From NCBI RefSeq assembly GCF_039536205.1, contig NZ_BAAAYL010000001.1:1302001-1366000 (forward strand): 64,000 bases of DNA. The letters are read 5' to 3'. A program made the translations under genes and the position numbers. Below are positions 6,595-46,059 of the stretch, in pieces (position 1 is the stretch's first letter; each line of letters begins with the position of its first letter). The notes beneath the pieces were generated by a model. The model worked only from the letters and a program-made list of their open reading frames with translations. It was not told the DNA's origin and made no database searches. The stretch comes from Streptomyces sannanensis (lineage in GTDB: Bacteria > Actinomycetota > Actinomycetes > Streptomycetales > Streptomycetaceae).

Positions 6595-7158
6595 TCAGAC
6601 TTCCCGCAGCTCCCACTCGGCGCGGGTCAGGGCATACTCGACTTCGCCGTGCTCGGATCCTTCGATCGCGTCCGGCCAGTCGCCGAAGTAGCTACGGACG
6701 AAGGTGAGGCCCGACTTCTCCATCACCCGGCGCGAACGGGTGTTCACGGCCATCGTGTTCGCGGTCACCCGCCGCACCCCGAGGTCGCTGAAGCCCTTGC
6801 GGATCAGCGCGCGCGATCCTTCGGTCGCGTAGCCGCCGCCCCATGCGGCCCTGCGCAGCCGGTAACCGAGTTCGACCTCGTCGGCACTGTGGTCCTCCAG
6901 CGGGCGGAATTCGAACCAGCCGAGGAAACTCCGCGTGGCCTTGTCCTCCGCCGCCCAGAAGCCGCAGATGCCGAGGCACGGGTAGTGGTGGAGAAGCCGT
7001 GGCAGATGCCGGTCCCGGACCGTCTCACGGGGCGTCGGCCGGCCTCCGTTGATGAACCGCATGACATCGGGGTCACTGTCAAGGTCGACCAGATGGTCCA
7101 CGTCGGCCTCGGTGAACCGGCGCAGGACCAGCCGGTCGGTCTCCAAGAACACAGTCAT
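6595..7158 (-). CDS. GNAT acetyltransferase (RimJ/RimL-like)
   Basis: 187 residues beginning ETDRLVLRRFTEADVDHL, the classical entry of the RimJ/RimL branch that acetylates ribosomal-protein or small-molecule amines using acetyl-CoA. Motif A is GYRLRRAAWGGGYATEGSRAL, containing the acetyl-CoA pyrophosphate-binding turn, followed by RRVTANTMAVNTRSRRVMEKSG (motif B region). Substrate unknown. The gene is convergent with the PLP enzyme and lies downstream of the VapC gene, separated from it by a gene remnant. Confidence 0.85.
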   Translation of the reverse strand: MTVFLETDRLVLRRFTEADVDHLVDLDSDPDVMRFINGGRPTPRETVRDRHLPRLLHHYPCLGICGFWAAEDKATRSFLGWFEFRPLEDHSADEVELGYRLRRAAWGGGYATEGSRALIRKGFSDLGVRRVTANTMAVNTRSRRVMEKSGLTFVRSYFGDWPDAIEGSEHGEVEYALTRAEWELREV

Positions 7159-7204
7159 GGCGCGATCTTCACGCTCAGCCGCGCCGAGTGCGAGCGAATT
7201 CCGC

Positions 7205-7432
7205 TCAGCTCGGTCCGATGCTGCTGCCGACGCCGCCGCTCGTGCTGTTGCCGATCAGGCGGATGCCCCGGGTGATCCGGTCCCTGCCGGCCAGAGGCGG
7301 GCCGTCCGGGCCCGAGTCGAAGGCGAACCTGACGATGATCACCGCCTCGGAGCCGACGCTAGACGGGAAGACGAGCGACTGGACATAGCCGCCGGGCCCG
7401 GCGGGCGGCGGCGGAGGCCCCAGGACTGGTGA
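7205..7432 (-). pseudogene. C-terminal gene remnant downstream of the toxin gene
   Basis: Read on the minus strand directly after the vapC-like stop, this interval keeps an open frame of about 75 codons with Streptomyces-like codon use and ends at TGA 7205-7207. The peptide contains PPPPPAGPGGYVQSLVF and FAFDSGPDGPPLAGRDRI. It lacks a credible start and ribosome site and has no family I can name. The best reading is the 3' end of an older gene whose 5' part was replaced when the toxin-antitoxin module arrived. A short gene starting at an internal GTG cannot be excluded. Confidence 0.4.
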
Positions 7433-7849
7433 TCAGGCGACCGGGTTCCGTACGTCCTGCTGGTCTACATCTTTGAGGACGCGGGCGACCGTGGCGAAGT
7501 CGTTGTCCCGATGCAGGATGGTCAAGCCATGGTGTACGGCTGTAGCGCACAACAAGAGGTCAATGCCCCCTGCCGCACGGTGCTGGCCTTTCTGGGTCAG
7601 TTTGTACTGAGCGGCGTCCACCCACCGCCATGCGCCTTTCGGTACGTTCACGGTGCCGAACATGTCGGTCAGGTCTTGATCCATCTCGTTGCGGTCGTCC
7701 GGACCGACGGCGCCGAAAAGGATCTCTGTCCGGGTGGCCTCGCATATGCCGATGGCGCCCGTTTCGATCTCCGCGTCCCAGCGTCTCTGAGCTGCGGGAT
7801 CGGTGCCAAGGTGGACGTATGCGCTCGTGTCGATGAGGTAGGTGATCAC
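7433..7849 (-). CDS. PIN-domain toxin, VapC type
   Basis: 138-residue PIN-domain ribonuclease, the toxin of a type II VapBC pair. The acidic metal-binding residues are Asp7 (LIDTSAYV), Glu42 (ATRTEILFG), Asp97 (GGIDLLLCATAV) and Asp115/Asp117 (HRDNDFATVA), as in active VapC proteins, which cleave tRNA or rRNA when free of antitoxin. Its ATG overlaps the antitoxin stop by 4 nt, so translation is coupled. The complex normally binds the operator upstream of vapB, and a strong candidate operator is present. The RNA target cannot be predicted. Confidence 0.92.
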   Translation of the reverse strand: MITYLIDTSAYVHLGTDPAAQRRWDAEIETGAIGICEATRTEILFGAVGPDDRNEMDQDLTDMFGTVNVPKGAWRWVDAAQYKLTQKGQHRAAGGIDLLLCATAVHHGLTILHRDNDFATVARVLKDVDQQDVRNPVA

Positions 7850-8082
7850 TCGGCGGCCTCGCCGTGCTGAGCGGCCTTACGGGCTTCCCAGAGCCGGCGT
7901 GTGGACTCCAGTTCGCCCCGCGCGCCACGCTCCGCGAGACGCTGGAAGGCGGCCCGGCGGCGGTGACGCCTTATGACCTCTTCGAGTGCCGTATTGATCG
8001 TGTCCTTTTTCGTGGTGGTGCCGAGCAGCCGTGCGGCCTCGGCGAGCACCTCGTCGTCCAAGTCCACGTTCGTGACGCCCAT
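7846..8082 (-). CDS. VapB-type antitoxin
   Basis: 78 residues. The N-terminal part (MGVTNVDLDDEVLAEAARLLGTTTKKDTINTALEEV without break in the gene) is a ribbon-helix-helix domain of the VapB/VbhA type; the polar, charged C-terminus (from about residue 45) would wrap around and inhibit the PIN toxin. The first strand sequence (TNVDLD) and TKKDT turn are typical. It is the first gene of the pair, with a promoter and nested palindromes 20-80 nt upstream, consistent with auto-repression by the VapBC complex. Confidence 0.9.
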   Translation of the reverse strand: MGVTNVDLDDEVLAEAARLLGTTTKKDTINTALEEVIRRHRRRAAFQRLAERGARGELESTRRLWEARKAAQHGEAAE

Positions 8083-8103
8083 GATCGACCCTCACTGTGT
8101 GCC

Positions 8104-8161
8104 ATGTGGGAAGACTTCCCACTACTCCCACATTATCGGGTCTGGCCTTCTTCCGGTTCAA
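8104..8161 (-). promoter_or_regulatory. vapBC promoter with nested operator palindromes
   Basis: On the minus strand a -35-like TTGAAC (8156-8161) and a -10-like GATAAT (8132-8137) are separated by 18 nt. Next to and overlapping the -10 lie two inverted repeats: GTGGGAAG/CTTCCCAC with a 1-nt centre (8106-8122) and ATGTGGGA/TCCCACAT (8104-8111 with 8126-8133). They end 22 nt before the antitoxin start. The arrangement is what an auto-repressing VapB/VapBC complex would use; binding itself is inferred. Confidence 0.75.
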
Positions 8162-8192
8162 GCCCCCGCCGGCTCCGGATCACCCAAGGGAC

Positions 8193-8212
8193 GGGGCGAG
8201 GAACCCCGCCCC
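8193..8212 (-). terminator. hairpin after the SDR gene
   Basis: GGGGCG (8193-8198) pairs with CGCCCC (8207-8212) around an 8-nt loop, just downstream of the SDR stop at 8226. There is no U-tract, which is common for streptomycete terminators. It would separate the glnA4 operon from the vapBC promoter region. Confidence 0.4.
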
Positions 8213-8225
8213 CGGGCGGCGTGGC

Positions 8226-9011
8226 CTACAGCGGGGTGACGTACGCCCCGGAGATACCTCCGTCGACCAGAAAGTCCGTCGCGTTGACAAACGAGGAGTC
8301 GTCGCTCGCCAGGAACGCCACCGCCGCAGCGATCTCCTCGGCCTCGGCGAAGCGGCCGGCCGGGATGTGCACCAGGCGGCGCGCGGCGCGCTCGGGATCC
8401 TTGGCGAACAGCTCCTGCAGCAGAGGTGTGTTGACCGGCCCCGGGCACAGTGCGTTGACACGGATGCCCTCGCGGGCGAACTGCACGCCCAGCTCACGGG
8501 ACATGGCGAGGACGCCGCCCTTGGACGCGGTGTACGAAATCTGCGACGTCGCCGCACCCATGATGGCCACGAAGGACGCGGTGTTGATGATGGATCCCTT
8601 GCCCTGGCGCTGCATATAGGGGATGGCGGCCTTGCAGCACAGGTACACGGACGTGAGGTTGACCTCCTGGACCCGCCTCCAGGCCTCCAGGCCGGTCGTG
8701 AGGATGGAGTCGTCGTCCGGTGGGGAGATACCGGCGTTGTTGAAGGCGATGTCGACACTGCCGTACGTGTCGTACGCGGTCTGGAAGAGCTCCTCGACCT
8801 GCTCGGCGTCGGTGACGTCGACCTTGACGAAGGTGCCGCCGACCTCCTCGGCAACGGCCTTGCCGGCCTTCTCGTCGATGTCGCCGCAGACGACGTTCGC
8901 GCCCTCGGAGGCGAGGCGGCGGGCGGTGGCGAGGCCGATGCCGCTGCCGGCGCCGGTAATGACGGCGGTGCGGCCGACCAGGCGGCGGCAGATGTTCGCT
9001 TCGGTGGTCAT
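8226..9011 (-). CDS. short-chain dehydrogenase/reductase (3-oxoacyl-ACP reductase-like)
   Basis: 261-residue classical SDR. The NAD(P)-binding motif is TGAGSGIG (residues ~19-26), NNAG follows at ~91, and the catalytic Ser, Tyr and Lys are in the NTASF and YTASKGG segments (YxxxK). The Asp in CGDID after beta-2 favours NAD(H). The C-terminal SDR end VNATDFLVDGGISGAY is intact. It is the third gene of the glnA4-ALDH-SDR operon, 6 nt from the ALDH stop, so it probably oxidises or reduces an intermediate of amine/ethanolamine degradation; the substrate is unknown. Homologues are often annotated fabG by default, which the context does not support. Confidence 0.85.
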   Translation of the reverse strand: MTTEANICRRLVGRTAVITGAGSGIGLATARRLASEGANVVCGDIDEKAGKAVAEEVGGTFVKVDVTDAEQVEELFQTAYDTYGSVDIAFNNAGISPPDDDSILTTGLEAWRRVQEVNLTSVYLCCKAAIPYMQRQGKGSIINTASFVAIMGAATSQISYTASKGGVLAMSRELGVQFAREGIRVNALCPGPVNTPLLQELFAKDPERAARRLVHIPAGRFAEAEEIAAAVAFLASDDSSFVNATDFLVDGGISGAYVTPL

Positions 9012-9017
9012 GGGTGC

Positions 9018-10400
9018 TCAGGCCTCCGTGCTGATGAAGACGTTCTTGGTCTCGGTGAAAGCGGTGAGGGCGTCGGGACCGAGTTCGCGGCCGAGTCCGG
9101 ACTGCTTGTAGCCGCCGAAGGGGGTCCAGTGGCGGACGCTGGAGTGGGAGTTGACGGAGAGGTTGCCGGCGGCGACCCCGCGCGAGACGCGGACGGCGCG
9201 GCCGACGTCACGGGTCCAGATGGAGCCGGACAGGCCGTACTCGGTGGCGTTGGCGAGACGTACGGCGTCGGCCTCGTCCTCGAAGGGCAGGACGACGGCG
9301 ACGGGGCCGAAGACCTCCTCGACGGCGACGGGCGCGTCCGGGGAGACGCCGGTGACCAGGGTCGGCGGGAACCAGAAGCCGGGGCCTTCGGGTGCCTTGC
9401 CGCGGATGACGGTGAGGTCGTCGGTGACGTACGAACGTACGCGTTCCAGCTGGGCCCTGGAGATCAGCGGGCCCATCCGGGTCTTCTCGTCCGCCGGGTC
9501 CCCGACGACGACGGACTCGATCGCGGGGACCAGCAACTCCAGGAAGCGGTCGTACATCGTGCGCTGGACCAGGATCCGGGTGCGGGCGCAGCAGTCCTGG
9601 CCGGAGTTGTCGAGGAACGACATGGGCGCGGCGGCCGCGGCGGCCTCGATGTCGGCGTCGGCGAAGACGATGTTGGGGCTCTTGCCGCCGAGTTCGAGGG
9701 TGAGCCGCTTCACGCGGTCGGCGCACTTGGCCATGATCTGCTTGCCCACCCCGGTGGAGCCGGTGAACACGATCTTGGCGACGCCGGGGTGCTCGACCAG
9801 GGCGTTGCCCGCGATATCGCCCGCGCCGGGCAGCACCTGGAAGAGGTGCTCGGGCAGCCCGGCCTCCAGGGCGAGTTCGGCGATCCGGAGGGCGGTGAGC
9901 GGGGTCGTCTCGGCGGGCTTGAGGATGACGGCGTTGCCGGCGGCGAGCGCCGGGGCGGTGCCCCAGGCGGCGATCGGCATGGGGAAGTTCCAGGGCGCGA
10001 TGACGCCGACGACGCCGAGCGGTTCGAGGAAGGTGACGTCCAGACCGCCGGGGACCGGGATCTGCCGGCCGCTGAGCCGCTCCACTCCCCCGGCTGCGAA
10101 GTCCAGGAGATCGCGGACGTTGCCGGCCTCCCATCGGGCGTTGCCGATGACATGGCCCGCCTCGCGGACCTCCAGCCGGGCGAGTTCCTCGATGTGCTCG
10201 TCCACGACGGCGGCAAAGCGCCGCAAGCCACGGGCGCGGTCGCCAGGCGCGAGGCCGGCCCATGCCGCCTGCGCCTTCGTGGCCCGTACGACGGCGGCGT
10301 CGACGTCCTCGACGGTGGCTCCGGGGACGGTCGCGATGACCTCCTCGGTGGCCGGGTCGATTACCTGAAGCTCGTACGAGTGCGACAAGGAAGGCCTCAC
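9018..10400 (-). CDS. aldehyde dehydrogenase of the gamma-glutamyl-amine pathway
   Basis: 460-residue NAD(P)-dependent ALDH. It shows the substrate/cofactor stretch VIAPWNFPMPIAAW, the FTGSTGVGKQI motif, the general base Glu in LELGGKSPN, and the nucleophile Cys in GQDCCARTR. In the PuuC/GabD-like context it would oxidise the aldehyde formed from a gamma-glutamylated amine. The start is the GTG at 10398-10400, which overlaps the glnA4 stop (GTGA), so the two are translationally coupled. A longer frame upstream is just the shadow of glnA4. Substrate assignment is by neighbourhood. Confidence 0.88.
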   Translation of the reverse strand: MRPSLSHSYELQVIDPATEEVIATVPGATVEDVDAAVVRATKAQAAWAGLAPGDRARGLRRFAAVVDEHIEELARLEVREAGHVIGNARWEAGNVRDLLDFAAGGVERLSGRQIPVPGGLDVTFLEPLGVVGVIAPWNFPMPIAAWGTAPALAAGNAVILKPAETTPLTALRIAELALEAGLPEHLFQVLPGAGDIAGNALVEHPGVAKIVFTGSTGVGKQIMAKCADRVKRLTLELGGKSPNIVFADADIEAAAAAAPMSFLDNSGQDCCARTRILVQRTMYDRFLELLVPAIESVVVGDPADEKTRMGPLISRAQLERVRSYVTDDLTVIRGKAPEGPGFWFPPTLVTGVSPDAPVAVEEVFGPVAVVLPFEDEADAVRLANATEYGLSGSIWTRDVGRAVRVSRGVAAGNLSVNSHSSVRHWTPFGGYKQSGLGRELGPDALTAFTETKNVFISTEA

Positions 10401-11761
10401 ATGCGTTCGAAGGAGCGGAAGCGCTCCCAGTCGGTGACCGCGGCGTCGAAGGCGTCCAGCTCGACGCGCGCCATGTTGCTGTAGTGCTCGACGACGTCGT
10501 TGCCGAAGGCGGCCTTGGCGATGGGGCTGTTGGCCCACAGCTCGGCGGCCTCGCGGAGGTTGGTGGGGACGTGCTCGAAGTCGGCGGTGTAGGCGTTGCC
10601 GGGGCAGGGCTCGGGGAGTTCGAGCTCGTTCTCGATGCCGTACAGGCCTGCGGCGACCATGCCGGCGACGGCGAGGTACGGATTGACGTCCCCGCCGGGG
10701 AGGCGGTTCTCGAAGCGCATCGAGCGGCCGTGGCCGACGACGCGCAGGGCGCAGGTGCGGTTGTCGAAACCCCAGGCGACCGCGGTGGGGGCGAAGGTGC
10801 CGGGCTGGAAGCGCTTGTACGAGTTGATGTTCGGCGCGTGGAGCAGGGAGAAGTCGCGCAGTGCGGCGAGCTGTCCGGCCAGGAAGTGACACATGACCGG
10901 GGACATCCCGCCCGGCCCGTCGCCGGGCATGACATTGGTGCCGTCGGCGTCCTGGAGCGACAGATGGATGTGGCAGGAGTTGCCCTCGCGCTCGTTGAAC
11001 TTGGCCATGAAGGTCAGCGCCATGCCCTCCTGGGCGGCGATCTCCTTGGCGCCGGTCTTGTAGACGGCGTGCTGGTCGCAGGTGACCAGGGCCTCGTCGT
11101 AGCGGAAGGCGATCTCGTGCTGCCCGAGGTTGCACTCGCCCTTGGCGGATTCGACGGTCAGGCCCGCGCCGGCCATGTCGTTGCGGATGCGGCGCAGCAG
11201 CGGCTCGATGCGGCCGGTGCCCAGCACCGAGTAGTCGATGTTGTACTGGTTGGCCGGGGTGAGATCGCGGTAGGCGCGGTTCCAGGCCTGCTCGTACGTG
11301 TCCCTGAAGACGATGAACTCCAGCTCGGTGCCCACCTGGGCGGTCCAGCCCCGCTCGGCGAGCCGGTCGAGCTGCCGGCGCAGGATCCGGCGGGGCGCGG
11401 CGGCGACAGGTGAGCCGTCGTTCCATGCGAGGTCGGCGATGAGCAGGGCGGTTCCCTCGTTCCAGGGGACGCGCCGCAGCGTGCCGATGTCGGGGTGCAT
11501 GGCGAAGTCGCCGTAGCCGCGCTCCCAGGACGACATCGCGTATCCGTCGACGGTGTTCAGGTCGACATCGACGGCGAGCAGGTAGTTGCAGCCCTCGGTG
11601 CCGTGCTCGAGCACCTCGTCGAGAAAGAAGGATGCGGCGAACCGCTTGCCCTGAAGTCTCCCTTGCATATCGGGGAACGTCAGGACGACAGTGTCGATCT
11701 CACCGCTTCGGACGAGAGCACGCAGCTCCTCGACTCCGAGCGGGGCTGTGCGGTCTGCCAC
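10397..11761 (-). CDS. glnA4: GlnA4-type gamma-glutamylethanolamide/polyamine synthetase
   Basis: 454-residue glutamine synthetase homologue of the type that joins glutamate to amines using ATP rather than making glutamine. Visible motifs: MQGRLQGKRF near the N-terminus, the catalytic-domain start GTELEFIVF (metal ligand Glu), KGECNLGQHEI (metal ligands), the His loop FMAKFNEREGNSCHIHLSL, and the ATP-site Arg cluster in NRLPGGDVNPYL. The typical GSI adenylylation loop is not obvious. In S. coelicolor the gene in this position (SCO1613, from memory) makes gamma-glutamylethanolamide. GTG start at 11761 behind AAGGAGG. First gene of an operon with the ALDH and SDR; divergent from a FadR-type regulator and sharing its control region. 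Confidence 0.88.
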   Translation of the reverse strand: MADRTAPLGVEELRALVRSGEIDTVVLTFPDMQGRLQGKRFAASFFLDEVLEHGTEGCNYLLAVDVDLNTVDGYAMSSWERGYGDFAMHPDIGTLRRVPWNEGTALLIADLAWNDGSPVAAAPRRILRRQLDRLAERGWTAQVGTELEFIVFRDTYEQAWNRAYRDLTPANQYNIDYSVLGTGRIEPLLRRIRNDMAGAGLTVESAKGECNLGQHEIAFRYDEALVTCDQHAVYKTGAKEIAAQEGMALTFMAKFNEREGNSCHIHLSLQDADGTNVMPGDGPGGMSPVMCHFLAGQLAALRDFSLLHAPNINSYKRFQPGTFAPTAVAWGFDNRTCALRVVGHGRSMRFENRLPGGDVNPYLAVAGMVAAGLYGIENELELPEPCPGNAYTADFEHVPTNLREAAELWANSPIAKAAFGNDVVEHYSNMARVELDAFDAAVTDWERFRSFERM

Positions 11762-36290: not shown

Positions 36291-36713
36291 ATGCAGACCT
36301 TCAGTGACAGTGCGACAGCAGGCAGCGGGCAGTCGGCTTCCGACCAGGGCGGTGATACCGTGCCGGCTCTCGCGGGCGCGGCGGTCTCCGTGTCGGCGGT
36401 GGGCGCGGTGCTGGCGCTCACCGATCTGGCCTCTCCGCTGCGCGCACCTTTCGTTCTCTTCTTCCTTCTTGCCGCTCCGGCCTCGGCGCTGGCCTTCGGC
36501 TTACGGGGCCTGGAACCGCTGGGGCGGCTCGTGGCGTCGTTGGCAGGGGCAGTCGCGATCGATCTGCTGATCGCGCAGGCGATGCTGGCCATGCACATAT
36601 GGTCGGTCCGGGGTGGGATCGCGGCGGTTGCCGGGACAAGCGCCCTCCTCTTCCTCCTGCTGGCACTGGTACGGCTCCGAGAGGGCCGTACGGCGAGAAG
36701 GCAGAGGTCCTGA
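36291..36713 (+). CDS. small membrane protein, four helices
   Basis: 140 residues: a polar N-terminus (SDSATAGSGQSASDQGG) and about four hydrophobic helices (VPALAGAAVSVSAVGAVLAL, APFVLFFLLAAPASALAF, LVASLAGAVAIDLLIAQAML, GIAAVAGTSALLFLLLALV), then a basic tail RLREGRTARRQRS. No known domain. ATG at 36291; the GGGGGG 11 nt before is a weak ribosome site. The following GNAT gene starts 1 nt after its stop, so it is probably the first gene of the polysaccharide-type operon or a membrane accessory of it. Confidence 0.65.
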   Translation: MQTFSDSATAGSGQSASDQGGDTVPALAGAAVSVSAVGAVLALTDLASPLRAPFVLFFLLAAPASALAFGLRGLEPLGRLVASLAGAVAIDLLIAQAMLAMHIWSVRGGIAAVAGTSALLFLLLALVRLREGRTARRQRS

Positions 36714-36714
36714 C

Positions 36715-37809
36715 GTGGACATCACCGTGCACAGGCCGGGTGAACTGACCGCAGCCGACAGGGCGTCCTGGACCGTCATGCAGTCCAAGGCCCATCTGCA
36801 CGGTTCACCCGAACTGGCAAACCCCTTCCTGTCGGCGGAGTTCGCCCTCGCGGTCGGCCGCTGCCGACGCGGAGTGCGGATAGCCGTCGCACGGGAGGAC
36901 GGCGAGCCCGCTGCGTTCTTCCCGTACCAGAGATCGGCCGCCGGCGTCGGCCGGGCCGTCGGACTCGGGGTCTCCGACTGCCAGGGCCTCGTGCACAGGC
37001 CCGGGTTCAGCTGGGACGCGCGCGAGCTGTTGCGGGCCTGCGGGCTCGCGGTGTGGGAGTTCGACCATCTGGCGCAGGGACAGCAGCCGTTCGAGGCCGA
37101 CGCCACCGGGTCGTACCCCTCACCCGTGATGGACATCGACCAGGGTTACGACGCCTACCTCGCGCATCTGCGCGCGCAGTCACCCAAGTTCACCCGGACG
37201 ACCCTGGCCAAGGAGCGCAAGCTCGGCAGGGACATCGGCGAGGTGCGCTATGTGCACGACGAGCGCGACCCGCAGGTGCTGCGCACCCTCATGCGGTGGA
37301 AGTCCGCCCAGTACCGCAGAACCGGCCGCAGCGACCGGTTCGCCCACCCGTGGATCGCCCGGCTCGCCGAGCAGCTGTTCCACACCGGTTCCGATTCCTT
37401 CGGCGGGCTTCTCTCGGTCCTCTACGCCGGCGGCCGGCCGGTCGCCGCCCATTTCGGACTGCGCTCCGAACGGATCATCAGCTGCTGGTTCCCGGCCTAT
37501 GATCCGGAGTTCTCGAAATATTCGCCCGGCCTGATCCTTCATCTGCGGATGGCCGAGGCGGCCGCCGCCGACGGAATCGCCTATCTCGACCTCGGCCGCG
37601 GCCAGAAGGAATACAAGGACTCCCTCAAGACGCGTGAACTCATGGTCTTCGAGGGCTGGGTGACACGCCGTCATCCAGTGGCCCTGGGACACCGGGCACA
37701 TCGTGTGCCGGTACGGGCCCTGCGCAATACCGTCCTCTCCCGGCCCGAGTTGTTCGAGCCGGCCGACCGACTCCTCAAACGGATGGGAAGAATCCGAATA
37801 CGCGCGTGA
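36715..37809 (+). CDS. FemAB/BcsL-type GNAT acetyltransferase (exopolysaccharide modification)
   Basis: 364 residues of the Acetyltransf_6 (CelD/BcsL) class. Typical features are EFALAVGRCRRGVRIAVARE early on, the FDHLAQGQQPF and SPKFTRTTLAKERKLGRDIG segments, SVLYAGGRPVAAHFGLRSER, and the terminal YLDLGRGQKEYKDSLKTRE, which is diagnostic of the FemAB-like acetyltransferases in cellulose/EPS clusters. It would acetylate or transfer an acyl/aminoacyl group to sugar intermediates in the cytoplasm. GTG at 36715 with AGAGG 6 nt before. Neighbours are glycosyltransferases and a deacetylase. Confidence 0.85.
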   Translation: MDITVHRPGELTAADRASWTVMQSKAHLHGSPELANPFLSAEFALAVGRCRRGVRIAVAREDGEPAAFFPYQRSAAGVGRAVGLGVSDCQGLVHRPGFSWDARELLRACGLAVWEFDHLAQGQQPFEADATGSYPSPVMDIDQGYDAYLAHLRAQSPKFTRTTLAKERKLGRDIGEVRYVHDERDPQVLRTLMRWKSAQYRRTGRSDRFAHPWIARLAEQLFHTGSDSFGGLLSVLYAGGRPVAAHFGLRSERIISCWFPAYDPEFSKYSPGLILHLRMAEAAAADGIAYLDLGRGQKEYKDSLKTRELMVFEGWVTRRHPVALGHRAHRVPVRALRNTVLSRPELFEPADRLLKRMGRIRIRA

Positions 37810-38168
37810 CAAGCGTGAAGAGCAGGGGTCAAAAACATAAAAAAGTGAGACCACGTTCCAGGTCTTGCCATAGGGTCCCAATCATCAATACCGTCGTACA
37901 TCCACCCGCATCGGTCCATCATGCAAGCGGCTCAAGGGGAGGGCTCTAGCGTCGCGATGGCTGCCGGAGCGGGGCGCGGTAGGGGGGTGCCGTGCTCGGC
38001 CTGCACGTGGGCCGAGTCGTGTTCCGCGCGGCAAGCAAAGCCAGCTCACCCGACCAGCACGGTGGTCGATACCTGCATGACCGGGGTGAGAACCCCCCTT
38101 TCGAACCGGACACTCATCCGGACTGCCCGGGGGCGGGCGGTCCACCGGACGAGAGGGACGTCAGACTC
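37810..38168. other. spacer and promoter region before the glycosyltransferases
   Basis: A 359-nt gap with no convincing gene. An A-rich patch (37832-37850) just after the GNAT stop stands out. A TTGCCA at 37865-37870 followed 17 nt on by ATACCG could be a promoter for the four-gene glycosyltransferase operon that starts at 38169. No operator-like palindrome is evident. Confidence 0.45.
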
Positions 38169-38990
38169 ATGAGTTCTTTCCTGCGCCCGGCGGTTTCGGA
38201 CATCGGCCGAATACCGAGCCAGTACCGGCCGGTCTCCTCGCATCTCGCCATCGCACCGCAGGTGAGCGTCGTGATACCCGCCATGAACGAGGCGGAGAAT
38301 CTTCCGTACGTCTTCAAGACGCTCCCCGACTGGATCCACGAAGTGGTCCTGGTCGACGGGAATTCCACCGACGACACCGTCGAGGTCGCGCGTGAACTGT
38401 GGCCCGACGTCAAGGTCGTCAAGCAGCAGGGCAAGGGCAAGGGCGACGCGCTGATCAGCGGATTCGCCGCCTGCACCGGCGAAATCATCGTGATGGTCGA
38501 CGCCGACGGCTCGGCCGACGGCGAGGAGATCGTCAGCTATGTGTCCGCACTCGTCTCGGGCGCGGACTTCGCCAAGGGATCCCGCTTCGCCAACGGCGGC
38601 GGCACGGACGACATGACCCCGATCCGCAAGCTCGGCAACCGGGTGCTGTGCGCCGTGGTCAACGCCAAGTTCGGCGCCCGCTACACCGACCTGTGCTACG
38701 GCTACAACGCCTTCTGGCGGCACTGCCTCGACGAGATCACCCTCGACTGCACCGGCTTCGAGGTCGAGACCCTGATGAACATCCGGGTCGTCAAGGCCGG
38801 GCTGAAGGTCCAGGAGATCCCCAGCCATGAGTACGTCCGGATCCACGGCGTCAGCAACCTCAGCGCCGTGCGGGACGGGCTGCGGGTGCTGAAGGTGATC
38901 CTCAAGGAGAGGGGCGTCCGCCGCACCGGGCGGCGCACCCCGCACCGGGTCCTGGGCGGCCTCAACGCCAAGCGGGGAGAGGTGTCTTGA
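38169..38990 (+). CDS. family 2 glycosyltransferase (DPM1/undecaprenyl-sugar type)
   Basis: 273 residues with a GT-A fold: VSVVIPAMNEAENLPYV (nucleotide-sugar binding), VVLVDGNSTDDTVEVA, the GKGKGDAL loop, and the DxD-like VMVDADGSADGEE. It lacks membrane helices, so it acts at the inner face of the membrane, probably moving a sugar from an NDP donor to a polyprenyl phosphate. ATG at 38169; a GAGAGG is 12 nt before. Followed by an overlapping second GT2. Donor sugar unknown. Confidence 0.88.
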   Translation: MSSFLRPAVSDIGRIPSQYRPVSSHLAIAPQVSVVIPAMNEAENLPYVFKTLPDWIHEVVLVDGNSTDDTVEVARELWPDVKVVKQQGKGKGDALISGFAACTGEIIVMVDADGSADGEEIVSYVSALVSGADFAKGSRFANGGGTDDMTPIRKLGNRVLCAVVNAKFGARYTDLCYGYNAFWRHCLDEITLDCTGFEVETLMNIRVVKAGLKVQEIPSHEYVRIHGVSNLSAVRDGLRVLKVILKERGVRRTGRRTPHRVLGGLNAKRGEVS

Positions 38991-39982
38991 CGCCTCGTGA
39001 CATCTCCGTGGTGATCTGCGTGTACACCGAGGACCGCTGGGAGGACATCCTCGCGGCGGTCTCCTCGGTGCGGCAGCAGTCCCTGCCCGCCCTCGAGACG
39101 CTGCTGATCGTGGACCACAACCCGGCACTGCTCGAACGGCTCGGCAAGGAGTTCCGGGAGACCGGGGAGGTGCGGGTGCTCGCCAACGCGGGCCCCCGCG
39201 GCCTCTCGGCCGGCCGCAACACCGGGATCGCCGCCGCCCGCGGCGAGATCGTGGCGTTCCTCGACGACGACGCCGTGGCCGAGCGCGACTGGCTGCGCCA
39301 CTTCGACGGGGGCTACGACGACCCGCGGGTGATGGCCGTCGGCGGACGCACCATGCCGGCCTGGGCCTCGGGCCGCCGGCCGGTGTGGTTCCCCGAGGAG
39401 TTCGACTGGGTCGTCGGCTGTACGTACAAGGGGCTGCCGCCCGGCCGAGTACGAGTGCGCAATGTGCTCGGCGGGAACGCCTCGTTCCGCAAGTCGGTCT
39501 TCGAAGCCGCCGGCGGCTTCGCGACGGGCATCGGCCGGGACGGCGACAAGCGCCCCCTGGGCTGCGAGGAGACCGAACTGTGCATCCGGCTCAGCGCGGC
39601 GCTCCCGCAGGCCGTGCTGCTGATCGACGACCGTGCGGTGATCCACCACCGGGTCCCGGCCGCGCGCGAGCGCTTCGGCTATTTCCGCACCCGGGCCTAC
39701 GCCGAGGGGCTGTCGAAGGCCCTCGTGGCTCGAAGTGTGGGCGCGGGCAGGGGACTCGAGTCCGAGCGCCGCTACACCACCCGCGTCCTGCCGGCCGGGG
39801 TGGCCCGCGGCCTGCGCGACGCCCTGCTCGGCCGCCCCGGCGGAGCGGGCCGGGCGGGGGCCATTGTGGCCGGGGTTGCGGCAGCGGCGGGAGGGTATGT
39901 CCTCGGAAGTGTCCGCTCCCGCGGAGGCGGAACGTTTCAGGTACCACGCATTGATCCCGTACCGGGGGGTGAGGGTCAGTGA
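38987..39982 (+). CDS. family 2 glycosyltransferase, second of the cluster
   Basis: 331 residues starting at TTG 38987 (overlapping the preceding stop as TTGA, behind GGGGAGAGG). Motifs: DISVVICVYTEDRWEDILAA, ETLLIVDHNP, the GPRGLSAGRNTGIAAARGEI loop, the DxD motif FLDDDAVAERDW and a C-terminal catalytic region GCEETELCIRLS (ED motif). A possible C-terminal membrane helix is AGAIVAGVAAAAGGYVLGSV (~295-315). It probably extends the lipid-linked saccharide started by the upstream enzyme. Confidence 0.87.
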   Translation: MTPRDISVVICVYTEDRWEDILAAVSSVRQQSLPALETLLIVDHNPALLERLGKEFRETGEVRVLANAGPRGLSAGRNTGIAAARGEIVAFLDDDAVAERDWLRHFDGGYDDPRVMAVGGRTMPAWASGRRPVWFPEEFDWVVGCTYKGLPPGRVRVRNVLGGNASFRKSVFEAAGGFATGIGRDGDKRPLGCEETELCIRLSAALPQAVLLIDDRAVIHHRVPAARERFGYFRTRAYAEGLSKALVARSVGAGRGLESERRYTTRVLPAGVARGLRDALLGRPGGAGRAGAIVAGVAAAAGGYVLGSVRSRGGGTFQVPRIDPVPGGEGQ

Positions 39983-40776
39983 ACGAAGCCGTACCGATTC
40001 TGATGTACCACGCCGTGGGGCACCGTCCCGCCGAGGCGGCGTACGGGCTCTCCGTCTCCCCCGAGGCCTTCGCCGAGCAGATGGAGCTTCTCTCGGAGCA
40101 TGGCTTCACACCACTGACGACGGCGGAGCTCGCCGGCACCTGGCGGAGATCGGGCCCGCTCCCGGCACGCCCGGTGCTGATCACCTTCGACGACGGGTAC
40201 GAAGGCGTGCACCGCCACGCCCTGCCCGCGCTCGTCAAGCACGGCTTCCCGTCGACCCTCTTCGTCTCCACCGGCTGGCTGCGCGGCCCGTACGACGAAG
40301 GGGGCGCCCTGGACACCATGCTCGACTGGGGCCAGGTGCGTGAACTCGTCGGCGCGGGCACCGAGATCGGCGGCCACAGCCACAGCCATCCGCAGCTGGA
40401 CCAGCTCGACGACGAACGGCTGTGGTACGAGACGGTGCGCTGCCGGGAGATCCTCACCGAGGAGCTCGGCGAGCGGCCCGTCTCGTTCGCCTATCCCTAC
40501 GGCTACTCCGACCGACGGGTGCGCCAGGCCGTGCGGAGGGCCGGCTATGCGCAGTCCCTCGCCGTGGGAAACGCACTCGCCGAGCGCCGCCAGGGACCCT
40601 ACGCCCTGCGGCGGGTGACCGTGCGGCGGAGCACCGGTATCGAGGAGTTCGAGCGACTGGTCGAAGGCCGGTCGATCGCCCGTAACTTCGCCAGGGACCG
40701 TGTCCTCACCCAGGGATACGCCCTCGTCCGCAGAACCCGACAGGCGCGCCGGAAGGTAAGCAGAATCCGTGTCTGA
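39979..40776 (+). CDS. polysaccharide deacetylase (NodB homology, CE4)
   Basis: 265 residues. NodB motif 1 is PVLITFDDGYEG (catalytic base Asp and metal Asp), motif 2 GAGTEIGGHSHSHPQL (metal His pair), motif 3 RCREILTEELGERPVSFAYP and YGYSDRRVRQAV. It has no signal peptide, so either it acts inside on lipid-linked N-acetylated sugar or is exported by another route. GTG start at 39979 overlaps the previous stop (GTGA). Deacetylation of an N-acetylhexosamine in the cluster product is the probable role. Confidence 0.88.
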   Translation: MNEAVPILMYHAVGHRPAEAAYGLSVSPEAFAEQMELLSEHGFTPLTTAELAGTWRRSGPLPARPVLITFDDGYEGVHRHALPALVKHGFPSTLFVSTGWLRGPYDEGGALDTMLDWGQVRELVGAGTEIGGHSHSHPQLDQLDDERLWYETVRCREILTEELGERPVSFAYPYGYSDRRVRQAVRRAGYAQSLAVGNALAERRQGPYALRRVTVRRSTGIEEFERLVEGRSIARNFARDRVLTQGYALVRRTRQARRKVSRIRV

Positions 40777-43700
40777 CACGACCACCGCCCAGGCCGACAA
40801 CCCGACGACTCAGACACAGTCGTCGGGCAGGCGACTTCGTCTGCCGGGAAGGGGCGGTGGGAGTCCGCTCTTCCGCAATGCCTACGCCCTGATGGTCAAC
40901 ACCGGGATCAGCGCGCTGCTCGGCCTGGGCTTCTGGCTGGCCGCCGCCCGCTACTACTCCGAGGACGCGGTCGGTCAGGGCTCCGCCGCGATCGCGGCGA
41001 TGAAGTTCCTCGCCGGGATCACCGCGGTGACCCTGACCGGTGCGCTGGCCCGGTTCATCCCGGTGGCCGGCAACACCACCGGCAAGCTGGTGTTCCGTAC
41101 CTACGCGGGCAGTTCGCTGATCGTCGGTCTCGCAGCGGTCGTCTTCCTGCTGACCCTGGACTTCTGGGGTCCCTCGTACCGCTTCCTGCACGGGCCGCTG
41201 AACGGACTCGGCTTCATCGCGGCAGTGATCGCCTGGTCGCTGCTCACCCTCCAGGACGGCGTACTGACCGGACTGCGCAGCGCTTTCTGGGTGCCCGTCG
41301 GCAACACCGTCTTCTCCGCGGTGAAGCTGGCGCTCCTGGTGGCGATCGCCGTCTCGGTGCCCACCGCCGGTGTCTTCGTCTCGTGGGTCGCCGCGATCGC
41401 GGTGTCCGTGGTGCCGCTGGGTTGGCTGGTCTTCCGCCGGCTGGTGCCGCGGCACGTCGAGCTGACCGCGAAGACCGCGAACCCGCCCTCCTACCGGGAG
41501 CTGGGGCGTTTCCTGGCCGGTGACTACACCGGGTCGCTGTTCGCGCTTGCCGTCGTCTACCTGGTGCCGGTGATCGTGGCCTCGCAGGTCAGCTCGGCCG
41601 ACAACGCGTACTTCTACATCACCGCGACCATCGGCGGCACAGTCGAGCTCCTGGCGATCAACATGGGCGCCTCCCTGACCGTGGAGGGCGCGCACGACCC
41701 GGCGCAGCTGGGACGCAACACCCGTGCCGCGCTGCTGCGCATGACCAAGATCGTCCTGCCCATCTGTCTCGTCCTCTTCGTCCTGGCCCCGCACATCCTC
41801 CGGGTGTTCGGCGAGGGATACGCCCAGGGCGCGACCCCGCTGTTGCGCTGGCTGGTCGTCGGCGCTGCGCTGCGGGTCGTCATCGAGCTCTACTTCGCGG
41901 TGCTGCGCGCCCAGAGCCGGACCGCCGGACTCGCCTATTTGCAGGGCGCGTTGTGTGTACTGGTGCTCGGCTCGACACTGGCGCTGCTGCCTCAGATGGG
42001 GCTCACGGGTGTGGGACTCGCGGAGGTGGCCAGCCTCTCCGTGATCGCCGCCGTCGCCGCGTACAAGCTGTACGGGGTGCTCAAGGCCGCCCCCGCGGCA
42101 GGGCCCGCGGAGACGGCCGCGGACGCGGCCTCGTCCGACGGGGACCTCGCGGACCTGGGCGTGGAGCAGGACGAGCCCGGTGAGACGGAACTCCCGGACG
42201 GGGACGACGCCGCGCCGGAGCCGACCGGCCCCCGCTGGGCGCTGCGCGCCGCGCTCGACCCCGACGTCACACCACCGATCGGCGTGCGGGTGGACTTCGA
42301 CCACCCGGAACGCCGTCCGGACCTGCGTCCGGGACCGGACACCCCGGCACCGGGCACACCGGCGCTCACCGACCCGGCCACCCCGGCCGTGCCCGTCGCG
42401 GAGCCGCCGGCCGGCACCACCGCACGCCGCGGACTCCGGACAGCCGGGCCCGAGCTGGGCATCGGCCTTCTGCTCGCATCCGCGCTGGCCCTGTACTGGT
42501 GGCCGATACGCGGCTTCGGCGAGGCCGAGCTGGACCGTATGGGCGGGCTCGGGCTGATCTCCGTACTGCCGGCCGCGACGCTGCTCGGCGCCGCACTGCT
42601 GATCCTCTCCTTCGCGTCACTGCTGTGGCTGAACCGGCCGCGTACGGTCCTGCTGACGGTGGTGCTGCTGGCCACGGTCGTGTCCCTGCACGGACTGCCT
42701 GCCGTACTGGAGGCCGAGCCCCGGTTCGCCACCGCCTGGCAGCACCTCGGCTTCATGGACTACATCGACCGGTCCGGCACCGCGGTGCCGGACCTGGACG
42801 CACGCTGGAGCTGGCCCGGATTCTTCGCGCTCGCCACGTTCGTCGCGAAGGCGTGCGGCGTCTCGGACATGACCGAGGTGATCCGCTGGTGGCCGATGAC
42901 CATCCAGCTGCTCTACCTCCCCCCGCTGTTCCTGCTGACGCGTGCGCTGCGGGCGAGCTGGCGGGCGAAGTGGACCGGCGCCTGGATCTTCGTACTGAGC
43001 GGCTGGGTGGGCCAGGACTACTTCTCGCCGCAGGGCTTCACCTACCTGCTCTATCTGGCCTTCGTGGCGGTCCTGCTGGTGTGGTTCCGCGAACCCCGGA
43101 TGCTGTGGGCGAGGCGCCGCCCCGGCGAGGCAGAGGTGCGTCCGGCGCGACGCCTCGAGAAGGCGGTGCTGCTGCTGGTCCTCGTGGCGCTGTTCGCCGG
43201 TACGGTGCCGGCGCACCAGCTGACGCCGTTCGTGATGCTGGGCGTCCTGACGGCACTGGTGCTGCTCGGCCGCTCGGAACTGCGCGGGCTGCCACTGCTG
43301 TTCGGCGTGCTGGTCGTGGTCTGGGTGGGCTTCTTCGCCGAGCCGTACTGGTCGGGTCACTTCGACGAACTGTTCGGCGGAGTCGGCGGGGTCGGCGGCA
43401 ATGTGACCTCGTCCGTGTCGGGACGCATCGAAGGCGGCAACTCCACGCACAAGCTGGTGCTGTACTCGCGGGTGGCGATGGCCGGCTCGGTGATGGCGCT
43501 GGCCTGCTACGGCTGGTGGCGGCGGCGCGAGAACGGATACGCCGAGCGCGCGCTGCTGGTACTGGCCTTCGTGCCGTTCCTGGGCTTCGGCATGCAGTCG
43601 TACGGCGGCGAGATGGCCCTGCGCGTCTTCATGTTCGCGCTGCCGGGCGCCGCGCTGCTCTGCGCGCTCGCCCTCTTCCCGCGCACCGGCGTCACCGCGG

Positions 43701-44449
43701 CGGAGCGGGACAAGGACCGGGTCAGCCTCGCGCCGCTGGCCGCTCTGATGGCCGGGCTGGTGCTGCTCGGCGGCTTCCTGGTGGCCCGCTGGGGCAATGA
43801 GCCGTTCGAGCGGATCAGGCCGGGCGAGGTCGCCGCGATGGAGTACGTCTACGCGCACGACGAGCCGACGGTCCGGCTGCTGTGGATGAGCAACGACACC
43901 GTCGACAACGTCACCCCCGCCATGCCCTGGGGCGCCCGGGACATGGAGAAGGTCAGCTACGTACCGACGCTCGCCCCGAGGGACCCGGTGCTGGTCGCCA
44001 GTCTGGTCAAGGCACTGAAGGACGCCGGCCCGCACTCGTACCTCATGGTCAACCGCAGCCAGTCGGTCTATCTCCAGCTCGACGCGGGCTACTCGGCCGC
44101 CTGGGAGAAGCGCCTGGTACACAATCTCGACGCCCGGCCGGAGCTGAAGAAGGTCCTGTCCAACACGGATGTCTCGATGTACGCGCTGAAGATCCAGCCG
44201 GACGGCACGGTGGCCGAGCCCAAGCCCGGCCCGGCCGGGCCGAGGATCACCTGGACACCCTGGTCGGTGGTGGGCGCGCTGGCCGCGCTGGCACTGATCG
44301 TGCTGCTGACGGCACGCGAGATCGTGCGCGTCGCCGTCCGGCCGGGAGTCAAGCGGCTGCGCCGGCTGCAGTCCACGTTCTGGTTCGCACTACCGCTGCT
44401 GGCGCTGCTGCTGGCGTCACTGGTCCAACGGTTCATGACGCTCTCTTGA
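40769..44449 (+). CDS. 1226-residue flippase-glycosyltransferase fusion membrane protein
   Basis: One uninterrupted frame from GTG 40769 (8-nt overlap with the deacetylase gene). Residues ~35-437 form a polysaccharide-type flippase (Wzx/MurJ-like fold, about 12-14 helices: NAYALMVNTGISALLGLGFW, then LVFRTYAGSSLIVGLAAVVF). Residues ~437-560 are an acidic/proline-rich cytosolic linker. Residues ~560-1226 form a second polytopic region, with MDYIDRSGTAVPDLDARWSW after the early helices, and a soluble outer segment LRLLWMSNDTVDNVTPAM, resembling a GT-C glycosyltransferase or O-antigen-polymerase-like enzyme. Ends TGA 44449. It would translocate the lipid-linked repeat and attach or extend it outside. 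Function inferred from cluster content. Confidence 0.75.
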   Translation: MSDTTTAQADNPTTQTQSSGRRLRLPGRGGGSPLFRNAYALMVNTGISALLGLGFWLAAARYYSEDAVGQGSAAIAAMKFLAGITAVTLTGALARFIPVAGNTTGKLVFRTYAGSSLIVGLAAVVFLLTLDFWGPSYRFLHGPLNGLGFIAAVIAWSLLTLQDGVLTGLRSAFWVPVGNTVFSAVKLALLVAIAVSVPTAGVFVSWVAAIAVSVVPLGWLVFRRLVPRHVELTAKTANPPSYRELGRFLAGDYTGSLFALAVVYLVPVIVASQVSSADNAYFYITATIGGTVELLAINMGASLTVEGAHDPAQLGRNTRAALLRMTKIVLPICLVLFVLAPHILRVFGEGYAQGATPLLRWLVVGAALRVVIELYFAVLRAQSRTAGLAYLQGALCVLVLGSTLALLPQMGLTGVGLAEVASLSVIAAVAAYKLYGVLKAAPAAGPAETAADAASSDGDLADLGVEQDEPGETELPDGDDAAPEPTGPRWALRAALDPDVTPPIGVRVDFDHPERRPDLRPGPDTPAPGTPALTDPATPAVPVAEPPAGTTARRGLRTAGPELGIGLLLASALALYWWPIRGFGEAELDRMGGLGLISVLPAATLLGAALLILSFASLLWLNRPRTVLLTVVLLATVVSLHGLPAVLEAEPRFATAWQHLGFMDYIDRSGTAVPDLDARWSWPGFFALATFVAKACGVSDMTEVIRWWPMTIQLLYLPPLFLLTRALRASWRAKWTGAWIFVLSGWVGQDYFSPQGFTYLLYLAFVAVLLVWFREPRMLWARRRPGEAEVRPARRLEKAVLLLVLVALFAGTVPAHQLTPFVMLGVLTALVLLGRSELRGLPLLFGVLVVVWVGFFAEPYWSGHFDELFGGVGGVGGNVTSSVSGRIEGGNSTHKLVLYSRVAMAGSVMALACYGWWRRRENGYAERALLVLAFVPFLGFGMQSYGGEMALRVFMFALPGAALLCALALFPRTGVTAAERDKDRVSLAPLAALMAGLVLLGGFLVARWGNEPFERIRPGEVAAMEYVYAHDEPTVRLLWMSNDTVDNVTPAMPWGARDMEKVSYVPTLAPRDPVLVASLVKALKDAGPHSYLMVNRSQSVYLQLDAGYSAAWEKRLVHNLDARPELKKVLSNTDVSMYALKIQPDGTVAEPKPGPAGPRITWTPWSVVGALAALALIVLLTAREIVRVAVRPGVKRLRRLQSTFWFALPLLALLLASLVQRFMTLS

Positions 44450-44640
44450 GCGCTCGGCTCGCCTCCGGGGCGCTCAAGGCCCTGTCGACGGTCGGCAGTG
44501 CTCGGTTTGCTCACGCGGCTGCAGCCGCATATCGACTGCAGCCCTCGCAAACCTGCGCGCGGTCTCCCTTCCGACAGGGCCGCGCCCCTTCGACTCGCTC
44601 GCGACGGCCCTGAAGGGGGATGCCCAGGGCCCGCGGTGGC
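44450..44640. repeat. structured intergenic repeat, copy A (between convergent genes)
   Basis: Between the convergent fusion gene and glycosidase. Nested inverted repeats: TTGAGCG/CGCTCAA (44446-44477), GGCCCTGTC/GACAGGGCC (44479-44581), GGTTTGC/GCAAACC (44504-44553) and the palindrome GCGGCTGCAGCCGC (44515-44528). The complement of 44521-44539 is GCAGTCGATATGCGGCTGC, found identically at 61375-61393, where the following bases also match. It is a dispersed, hairpin-forming repeat and probably a bidirectional terminator. Confidence 0.65.
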
Positions 44641-46059
44641 TCAGCGCTCGAGCCACCGCACGCCATACGCCGGCATGTCGAAGGTCTTCCCGTCGACCCG
44701 CGCCTGGATGGCCCTGTTCAGTGTGTTGACCACCAGGACCGCCTTGTCGTCCGCCAGCACCCGGACGTTCGGTACGTCGTCCTGGGCGATGTCCACCGTC
44801 TCGTAACGCGTCCCCGGCGGGAACTCCTTGCCGAAACGCTTCACCAGGTCCAGCATCGGCAGTCCGCTCCCGCCGTCACCGAGCTGCGTGGCCCGCCACA
44901 GACAGCCGGCGCAGGCGGCACCCTTCTTCTGCGGGTTCCAGTAGAAGCCGCTGCTCGCCCCGCCACGCACCATCGCCATCATCCCGGTGGCCTGGACGGC
45001 GACACGTTGCGCCTCGCTCCAGCCTTCCCGGTCGTCGTCATCGTCGCCCGGCTCGACGTAGTACTCCGCCCACCAGAGCGGCAGCCCGCCGGACTGCTGC
45101 TTCACCCACTGGCTCACCGCCGTCAGCTTCTCCGTCGCCCGGAACGGGTCCGGCAGCAGCTCGTCGTCACGGGTGTAGCTGGAGCCGTCGACGACCACGA
45201 AGTCCGCGCCCGCCTTGTTCCTGTTCCAGTAGCCGAAGGCGTCGAGGACCCGCTGGTCGATGCTGCCCCACGGCCCCTTGAGCGCCGACGCGTACGTCGT
45301 GTCGCGCGGTTCGTAGCTGTCCATGACCAGATACGGGCCGCCGACCAGATTCTCCTTGTTCACCTTCTTGAGCGCCGCGTACACCAGGTTGTAGAGCCGG
45401 GTGTAGCCCTCGTAGTCCCACCGTTTCCTGGAGTCGTCGAAGAAACCCTTGAACTCGTTCCAGACGATGAAGTGGCGGACATCCGGATAGCGTTTGGCGA
45501 CCGTTGCCGCCAGTTCGGCGAAGTCCTCGTAGTGGGCCGGGCTGGGCGCCGTCTCCAGCGCCCGCTGGCTCCAGTCCGTGTTCTTCGCGCCCGCCTTGCC
45601 GCCCTTCATCCAGTCCGGCGCGCAGCACAGGGTGATCACCGGTGTGCCACCGGTGCTGCGGATGAAGTCGATACGGCGGTCCAGCGCCTCGAACTGATAA
45701 CGGCCGGGCGAGGGCTCGGGATTGTCCGCGCCCCACCCCATGAGGTGCTGGTTCTGCGGCAGCGGCTGCGCGGACAGCAGCCGCTCCGCCTGCCGGATCG
45801 ACCCCGGCTTCCCCTCGTCGGCGCTGTACTGCGTATGCGTGAAGCCCCACCCCACGTCCGGCTTCGGCCGGGCAGGCGGCGTCGCGGGCGTACCGTGCAC
45901 CCTGTCGCCGTCGGCCGAGGTCCCCGGGTCGGCGCCCTCGCCGTTGCCGGGCTGGATGCTGCACATGGTCAGGAGAAGTGCGAGTGCGACTGCGCCCGTG
46001 CCGAGCAGAGCGGTGAGCCGCCACCGCCGTGCCCCCGTGTTCCACCCATGACGTCCCAT
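44641..46059 (-). CDS. secreted clan GH-A glycoside hydrolase (GH39-like)
   Basis: 472 residues. After MGRHGWNTGARRWRLTALLG there is a hydrophobic signal/anchor (~16-35), and the mature part begins in a Gly/Asp linker. Catalytic features: FIVWNEFKGFF supplies the acid/base Glu of the NE motif, LWWAEYYVE the nucleophile Glu, with QFEALDRRIDFIRSTGG earlier. This is the beta/alpha barrel of GH39/GH5-like beta-xylosidases and EPS-degrading enzymes. Located convergently at the end of the polysaccharide-type cluster, it could trim or release the polymer made there. The ATG at 46059 is preferred although no strong ribosome site is present. Confidence 0.78.
   Translation of the reverse strand: MGRHGWNTGARRWRLTALLGTGAVALALLLTMCSIQPGNGEGADPGTSADGDRVHGTPATPPARPKPDVGWGFTHTQYSADEGKPGSIRQAERLLSAQPLPQNQHLMGWGADNPEPSPGRYQFEALDRRIDFIRSTGGTPVITLCCAPDWMKGGKAGAKNTDWSQRALETAPSPAHYEDFAELAATVAKRYPDVRHFIVWNEFKGFFDDSRKRWDYEGYTRLYNLVYAALKKVNKENLVGGPYLVMDSYEPRDTTYASALKGPWGSIDQRVLDAFGYWNRNKAGADFVVVDGSSYTRDDELLPDPFRATEKLTAVSQWVKQQSGGLPLWWAEYYVEPGDDDDDREGWSEAQRVAVQATGMMAMVRGGASSGFYWNPQKKGAACAGCLWRATQLGDGGSGLPMLDLVKRFGKEFPPGTRYETVDIAQDDVPNVRVLADDKAVLVVNTLNRAIQARVDGKTFDMPAYGVRWLER

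Follow-up and report, generated by a model that had tools for sequence, protein, structure and literature searches.

We analysed a 64,000-nt window of the Streptomyces sannanensis genome (contig NZ_BAAAYL010000001.1, positions 1,302,001 to 1,366,000), for which genes, Pfam and NCBIfam matches and coordinates were determined. The window carries a putative glycan gene cluster built around a single 1226-residue membrane protein in which a flippase is fused to a GT-C glycosyltransferase. The genes and domains are as follows:

36291..36713, plus strand: small membrane protein, 140 aa, family unassigned, no Pfam match
36715..37809, plus strand: GNAT/BioF2-like acyltransferase (PF13480, 6.3e-45), start codon GTG 36715
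38169..38990, plus strand: GT2a, a polyprenyl-phosphate sugar synthase-like GT2 (AglJ/DPMS/ArnC type)
38987..39982, plus strand: GT2b, an AglG-like GT2
39979..40776, plus strand: CE4 polysaccharide deacetylase, PgaB/IcaB-like (PF01522, 2.2e-28)
40769..44449, plus strand: flippase/GT-C fusion, 1226 aa, single open frame
40871..42079, plus strand: flippase (MOP) domain of the fusion, about residues 35-437
42080..42448, plus strand: linker, residues 438-560
42449..44446, plus strand: GT-C glycosyltransferase domain with globular subdomain, residues 561-1226
44641..46059, minus strand: GH39/PslG-like glycosidase (GH; PF01229, 25.9 bits), convergent

Gene ends overlap by 4, 4 and 8 bp at the GT2a/GT2b, GT2b/deacetylase and deacetylase/fusion boundaries, respectively, and a scan for sigma-70 promoters found none. 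GT2a probably starts at ATG 38169 rather than at the longest-ORF start, 37992. Because it is encoded on the minus strand, the convergent GH gene lies outside the operon. A first-pass annotation, made from the sequence, had the coordinates and domain guesses right but erred on the start codons of the GNAT and GT2a genes and on the strand relation of the GH gene; the genes with which it surrounded the fusion (GNAT, two GT2s, deacetylase and GH) are all present, the last on the opposite strand.

The 1226-aa frame is genuine, with a GC content at third codon positions (GC3) of 0.91. From 8000 candidates scored in a homologue search, 1594 emerged as homologues; lengths among the 120 listed span 1213-1392 aa. 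One of those listed, P0045, comes from S. avermitilis, a laboratory species with the fused gene. For the Streptomyces loci we took the best 80 of 262 relatives from a named-genome scan, a choice that favours resemblance to the complete query protein. All 80 encode one open frame (1227-1621 aa) in which both halves match, ruling out an assembly or frame artefact. In 62 of the 80 loci the order is membrane protein, GNAT, GT2a, GT2b, deacetylase, flippase and GT-C, followed by the GH on the opposite strand; nine loci lack only the GNAT match, and the other nine lack other pieces, several of them at a contig end. Where enough flanking sequence was available (70 loci upstream, 69 downstream), GT2a, GT2b and the deacetylase were each found in 70/70, the small membrane protein in 67/70, the GNAT in 62/70 and the GH in 69/69.

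Both halves are predicted to adopt the folds that the first-pass annotation had anticipated for a single flippase/GT-C chain. An AlphaFold2 model of the N-terminal half (pLDDT 70.8, middling confidence) has the MOP fold: its best Foldseek match was WzxE (9g9n, E 5.4e-7, TM 0.60), followed by MurJ. Among nine aligned members, PF01943 matched five at an E of 1 or better (best 2.4e-6) and the MurJ Pfam model one (3.3e-4); the window's own domain matched neither. The annotation had staked its reading on a glycosyltransferase or polymerase fold in the C-terminal half, and a GT-C fold was found there, closest to STT3, AglB and PglB and also matching ArnT. E948 is invariant in 45/45 aligned rows, and D677 and D750 are each conserved in 34/45; the conserved residues further include H816 and R952. 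The acidic positions are candidates for the catalytic residue expected on an outer loop of GT-C enzymes. The EL1 loop carries no conserved DxD. WWDYG is the oligosaccharyltransferase motif; this STT3 signature is absent from the fusion protein, and PF02516 (STT3 family) has no match in the host genome.

No Pfam or NCBIfam model matched the window's GT-C half, a PDB sequence search with the GT-C profile gave one weak, irrelevant match, and no WaaL-type fold was among the structural matches listed. Assignment to O-antigen ligases (Wzy_C) or DUF2079 was rejected, as each model matched one of 16 rows (0.0035 and 0.00081, respectively) and neither matched the window's own. Many of the listed Streptomyces records label proteins of this family 'lipopolysaccharide biosynthesis protein' or 'hypothetical protein'. 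Two relatives taken at first for further fusions, P0144 and P0190, are stand-alone GT-C proteins with disordered-looking acidic N-terminal tails of ~500 residues; P0144 has repeated DDDEDGTAVIS.HDIKAAIEAADRAK-like units.

The 123-residue linker between the halves is variable outside two motifs (mean top-residue conservation 0.45 over residues 438-487 in 81 aligned proteins). In the same alignment, 7/8 positions of the first motif, DGDLADLG (residues 457-464; window 42137-42160), reach at least 0.91, and 22/37 positions of the second, W-A...LD.D.T..G...DFDH.ERRPD.RPGP.TP (residues about 490-526; window 42236-42346), reach at least 0.85. By topology the linker should be cytosolic, and its motifs may therefore be docking sites for the GT2s.

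We used the C-half as query against 150 genomes of the genus, scoring up to eight candidates in each and scoring the frames for the C-half. It matched in 76 and not in 74. By hand count from the table, 51 of the 76 have close, nearly full-length matches (at least 65% identity), 48 of which lie in open frames of 1186 aa or more; two of the other three begin near a contig end, and G500 is without explanation. In G505, G524, G478 and G456 the close-type copy occurs in pieces or shortened frames, which suggests loss or sequencing errors. In the remaining 21 genomes the sole match is of a second, more divergent type (30-37% identity). A strict either/or between the two types does not hold: G452, G454 and G522 have both, and G524 and G456 combine the second type with a shortened close-type copy.

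Beyond the genus, distribution figures refer to sampled genomes with few scored candidates each. The class sample comprised 394 genomes, with the three or four best candidates scored per genome and 40 regions retrieved; the C-half matched in 73 and the N-half in 98. In a phylum sample the C-half profile matched 12/296 genomes, five of them outside the class. Among the relatives are nine loci (L124-L132) of one family (f17), which is probably that of Nonomuraea, Sphaerisporangium and Thermomonospora, since GT-C relatives at 40-44% identity include these genera. In eight of the nine, flippase and GT-C are adjoining same-strand genes, overlapping by 4 bp at their predicted starts in L124, L125 and L129. 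GT2a (46-70%) is present in 9/9, and GT2b (55-58%), the deacetylase (48-53%) and the GNAT each in 8/9, the exception being L128; a homologue of the small membrane protein lies 5' of the GNAT in L124-L127, L129 and L132. The cluster is conserved as a unit with the same gene set as in Streptomyces. Separate halves devoid of shared context, which would have undermined the first-pass reading, were not what we found, and the search for the domain pair across actinobacteria that it had proposed uncovered fusions in further lineages besides the 80 selected Streptomyces loci.

L128 itself encodes a flippase/GT-C fusion (1269-aa frame), and so does L144 of family f9 (1418 aa). In L142 (f13; 7010-10978, minus strand), flippase, AglG-like GT2b and GT-C form one 1312-aa chain, and GT2-GT-C fusions occur in the same cluster type in L153 (3145-6639, minus strand) and L154 (8347-12351), both of f17. 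On a quick, unrooted tree of 52 C-halves (six fragments of 58 omitted), the flippase fusion requires four changes, which need not equal four gains. The firmest separate fusion is that of L128, which groups with six split relatives (SH-aLRT 99).

A further group of loci retains half of the GT-C domain. Flippase chains of the second Streptomyces type (L133 and L135-L137, with L134 judged by eye), like those of L153 and L154, end in a degenerate version of the first GT-C half; the GQDYFSPQ motif is missing from it, and so in most cases is the EL1 loop (H659 to WPGFF). Each locus also encodes a separate intact GT-C. The open reading frames of flippase plus half-GT-C are:

L133: 7604-10111
L135: 6949-9864
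L136: 10003-12102
L137: 6539-10054
L153: 11285-13513
L154: 3919-6066

These pieces may be what is left of a fused enzyme that degenerated into a docking part, an order of events that we infer from the sequences.

The two GT2s give a lead on the lipid carrier. The PDB structures nearest to GT2a are DPMS (5mlz, 3.5e-20) and then ArnC. Its best NCBIfam match is AglJ (TIGR04182; 144.6-144.9 bits against a curated cut-off of 325), and that of GT2b is AglG (NF041394; 224.8 against 440). Both are the top matches in the host genome (144.9 bits with a runner-up at 74.0 for AglJ; 224.8 with a runner-up at 53.3 for AglG) and sit next to each other. In 14/14 control genomes both models also match, above the cut-off in only two and one, respectively. 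Given these scores below the cut-offs and the controls, we take the resemblance as a lead and do not assign GT2a and GT2b as AglJ and AglG. GT2b likely adds a further sugar.

The accessory enzymes might modify the glycan. The CE4 deacetylase opens straight at its catalytic domain with no obvious signal peptide, and the GH has a hydrophobic N-terminal signal or anchor (both by eye). At 25.9 bits the GH falls just short of the Pfam GH39 cut-off of 26, and its match to PslG is weak (0.011). It recurs in 8/9 of loci L124-L132; in L126 the contig stops shortly past the GT-C gene. The flanks (kinase, GDSL hydrolase, GntR, GNAT2, DUF402 and methyltransferase) are syntenic across Streptomyces, but none has a match at 1e-10 in L124-L132, the lone flank-gene match being a kinase (34%) in L154. 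The GH is therefore unlikely to be an unrelated neighbour, and cluster and GH together make up the functional unit.

Taken together, the cluster probably encodes a surface-glycan pathway with covalent coupling between flipping across the membrane and glycosyl transfer at its outer face. From the computed domain folds, gene linkage and recurrence of the fusion we infer its chemistry, direction of flux, the choice between polymerase and transferase, and its product as follows. GT2a would load polyprenyl phosphate with a first sugar, GT2b would extend it, and cytosolic editing of the lipid-linked sugar would fall to the CE4 enzyme, perhaps with the GNAT. Once flipped by the N-terminal MOP domain, this sugar would serve the attached GT-C domain at the outer face, most likely for polymerising or building a polysaccharide that the exported GH39-like enzyme would trim or release. 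We favour a polysaccharide over a protein acceptor because the GH39-like enzyme travels with the cluster and STT3 signatures are missing; the label exopolysaccharide is suggested by gene content, namely the CE4 deacetylase and the GH39/PslG-like hydrolase. A more speculative extension, possible but on the doubtful side, is a bacterial counterpart of archaeal Agl that assembles a polysaccharide on polyprenyl monophosphate, with flippase and GT-C polymerase in one polypeptide (in one lineage with a GT2 as well). The sugar lipid might then pass from synthesis through flipping to polymerisation without release, and the relic half-GT-C domains might dock the separated enzyme.

Several observations weigh against this interpretation. 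GT2a and GT2b score far under the AglJ and AglG cut-offs, and GT2s commonly give matches below the cut-off. Confidence in the flippase model is only middling, and the window's own N-half has no flippase Pfam match. L128 is fused, yet GT2b, the deacetylase and the GNAT are unmatched within its 18 kb, and because L142 and L144 sit on long branches, the count of separate fusions is uncertain. No Wzz-like gene stood out among the products covered by general Pfam scans, and PHPT genes are present elsewhere in the host genome.

The last point would suit a Wzx/Wzy-type pathway on undecaprenyl pyrophosphate, in which a PHPT encoded elsewhere starts the repeat unit and GT2a only makes a lipid-phosphate sugar that the GT-C half uses for side-branching. 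So would the top PDB match of the flippase half, since WzxE flips lipid III, a pyrophosphate lipid. A PHPT gene at 3.02 Mb does adjoin a MurJ-like gene. It lies 1.7 Mb away, however, with that flippase-like gene of its own alongside; no PHPT (PF02397) was among the scanned products in or beside the cluster, and the GT2s nearest to AglJ and AglG adjoin each other. We regard this scheme as unlikely. Protein glycosylation, with the GT-C half acting like an oligosaccharyltransferase that moves a lipid-linked glycan to secreted proteins, as AglB does in haloarchaea, would account for the STT3, AglB and PglB folds and the AglJ- and AglG-like enzymes upstream. With the STT3 family unmatched in the genome, WWDYG missing, EL1 devoid of a conserved DxD, and a GH39/PslG-like hydrolase and CE4 deacetylase that better fit a polysaccharide, we consider it improbable.

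The fusion could also be a mere convenience of co-expression, its halves working independently and tolerating separation, as the neighbouring but separate genes in 8/9 of loci L124-L132 would allow. Against this, fusion recurs in other lineages, also with a GT2, the linker bears conserved motifs, and a truncated GT-C piece persists on some Streptomyces flippases despite an intact GT-C encoded nearby, which suggests a docking role; a convenience is thus a rather doubtful account. Under covalent coupling, by comparison, many Streptomyces would build a surface sugar polymer with one giant membrane protein that does two jobs usually held by separate proteins. Cooperation between flippase and outer-face polymerase has so far largely been inferred from such separate proteins, and the natural fusion, its split relatives, the triple fusion and the half-GT-C relics make direct coupling testable in one gene of a tractable and mostly harmless genus. 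A GT-C family for which the window's protein has no Pfam or NCBIfam match also gains a likely activity, and the cluster hints at a Streptomyces surface glycan that we could match to no described one. In agreement with the first-pass annotation, which knew of no system with this architecture, we found no description of a flippase/GT-C fusion in the open-access literature that our searches listed.

Among known systems is the Arn pathway (ArnC, ArnD, ArnEF and ArnT), where a CE4 enzyme acts on a lipid-monophosphate sugar that is then flipped and transferred by a GT-C enzyme. Arn shares with the pathway proposed for our cluster a GT2 acting on polyprenyl phosphate, on-carrier CE4 deacylation, a flippase and an outside GT-C; GT2a matches ArnC and the C-half the ArnT fold. 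The flippase type differs, and the second GT2 and the fusion of flippase to GT-C are further differences. MatAB and CslA/GlxA, like the proposed product, concern Streptomyces surface glycans, but they are of the synthase type and not flippase-based.

In Haloferax, AglJ and then AglG add sugars to dolichol phosphate; the product next goes through a flippase step, and AglB works on the outside (PMC3871713). The haloarchaeal pathway (AglJ, AglG, AglR/Agl15 and AglB) appears alike in its two sequential GT2s on a lipid monophosphate, putative flippase and outside GT-C. It differs in that the Agl genes are separate and AglB has the STT3 signature that the fusion protein lacks; the Streptomyces cluster is bacterial, its GT2s are below the cut-offs, and CE4, GNAT and GH are added. 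In Haloarcula hispanica, AepG is a DolP-glucuronic acid synthase that is encoded in a cluster with AglJ, AglG and AglB homologues and serves exopolysaccharide and not S-layer glycans (PMC9943897). This DolP-sugar synthase parallels the exopolysaccharide role proposed for the Streptomyces cluster.

The nearest studied logic, by analogy, is the imp cluster of Actinoplanes, with a Wzx-like ImpC, an Alg6/Alg8-like ImpE and an adjoining gimB (PMC12691653). Its reported product is a repeating polysaccharide (PMC12691653, PMC13390465), which the authors assign to the matrix of the sporangium (PMC12691653). Likened by gene content and not by sequence, both have an actinobacterial flippase and a GT-C-like membrane protein beside a glycoside hydrolase; the imp glycosyltransferases as described there are three GT4s and one GT2, and the flippase and GT-C-like genes are separate. 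Passages of an S. coelicolor transporter survey mention a 429-aa MOP protein and also an auxiliary protein whose neighbours are a glycosyltransferase and a deacetylase, nothing decisive (PMC3924187), and those of a paper on N-glycosylation origins likewise had nothing decisive for the fusion (PMC4973528).

Elsewhere in the same genome (G000, 7.8 Mb), the MurJ-like gene and the PHPT sugar transferase form a separate glycan locus (G000:C1:3019536-3022998). Equal-score GT2 matches at G000:C1:492935-493279 (plus strand) and 6916074-6916418 (minus strand) lie as mirror images on the contig of 7409353 bases, and a second equal-score mirror-image pair lies at 490632 and 6918434; such a layout would fit a linear chromosome with ~0.5 Mb inverted repeats at its ends.

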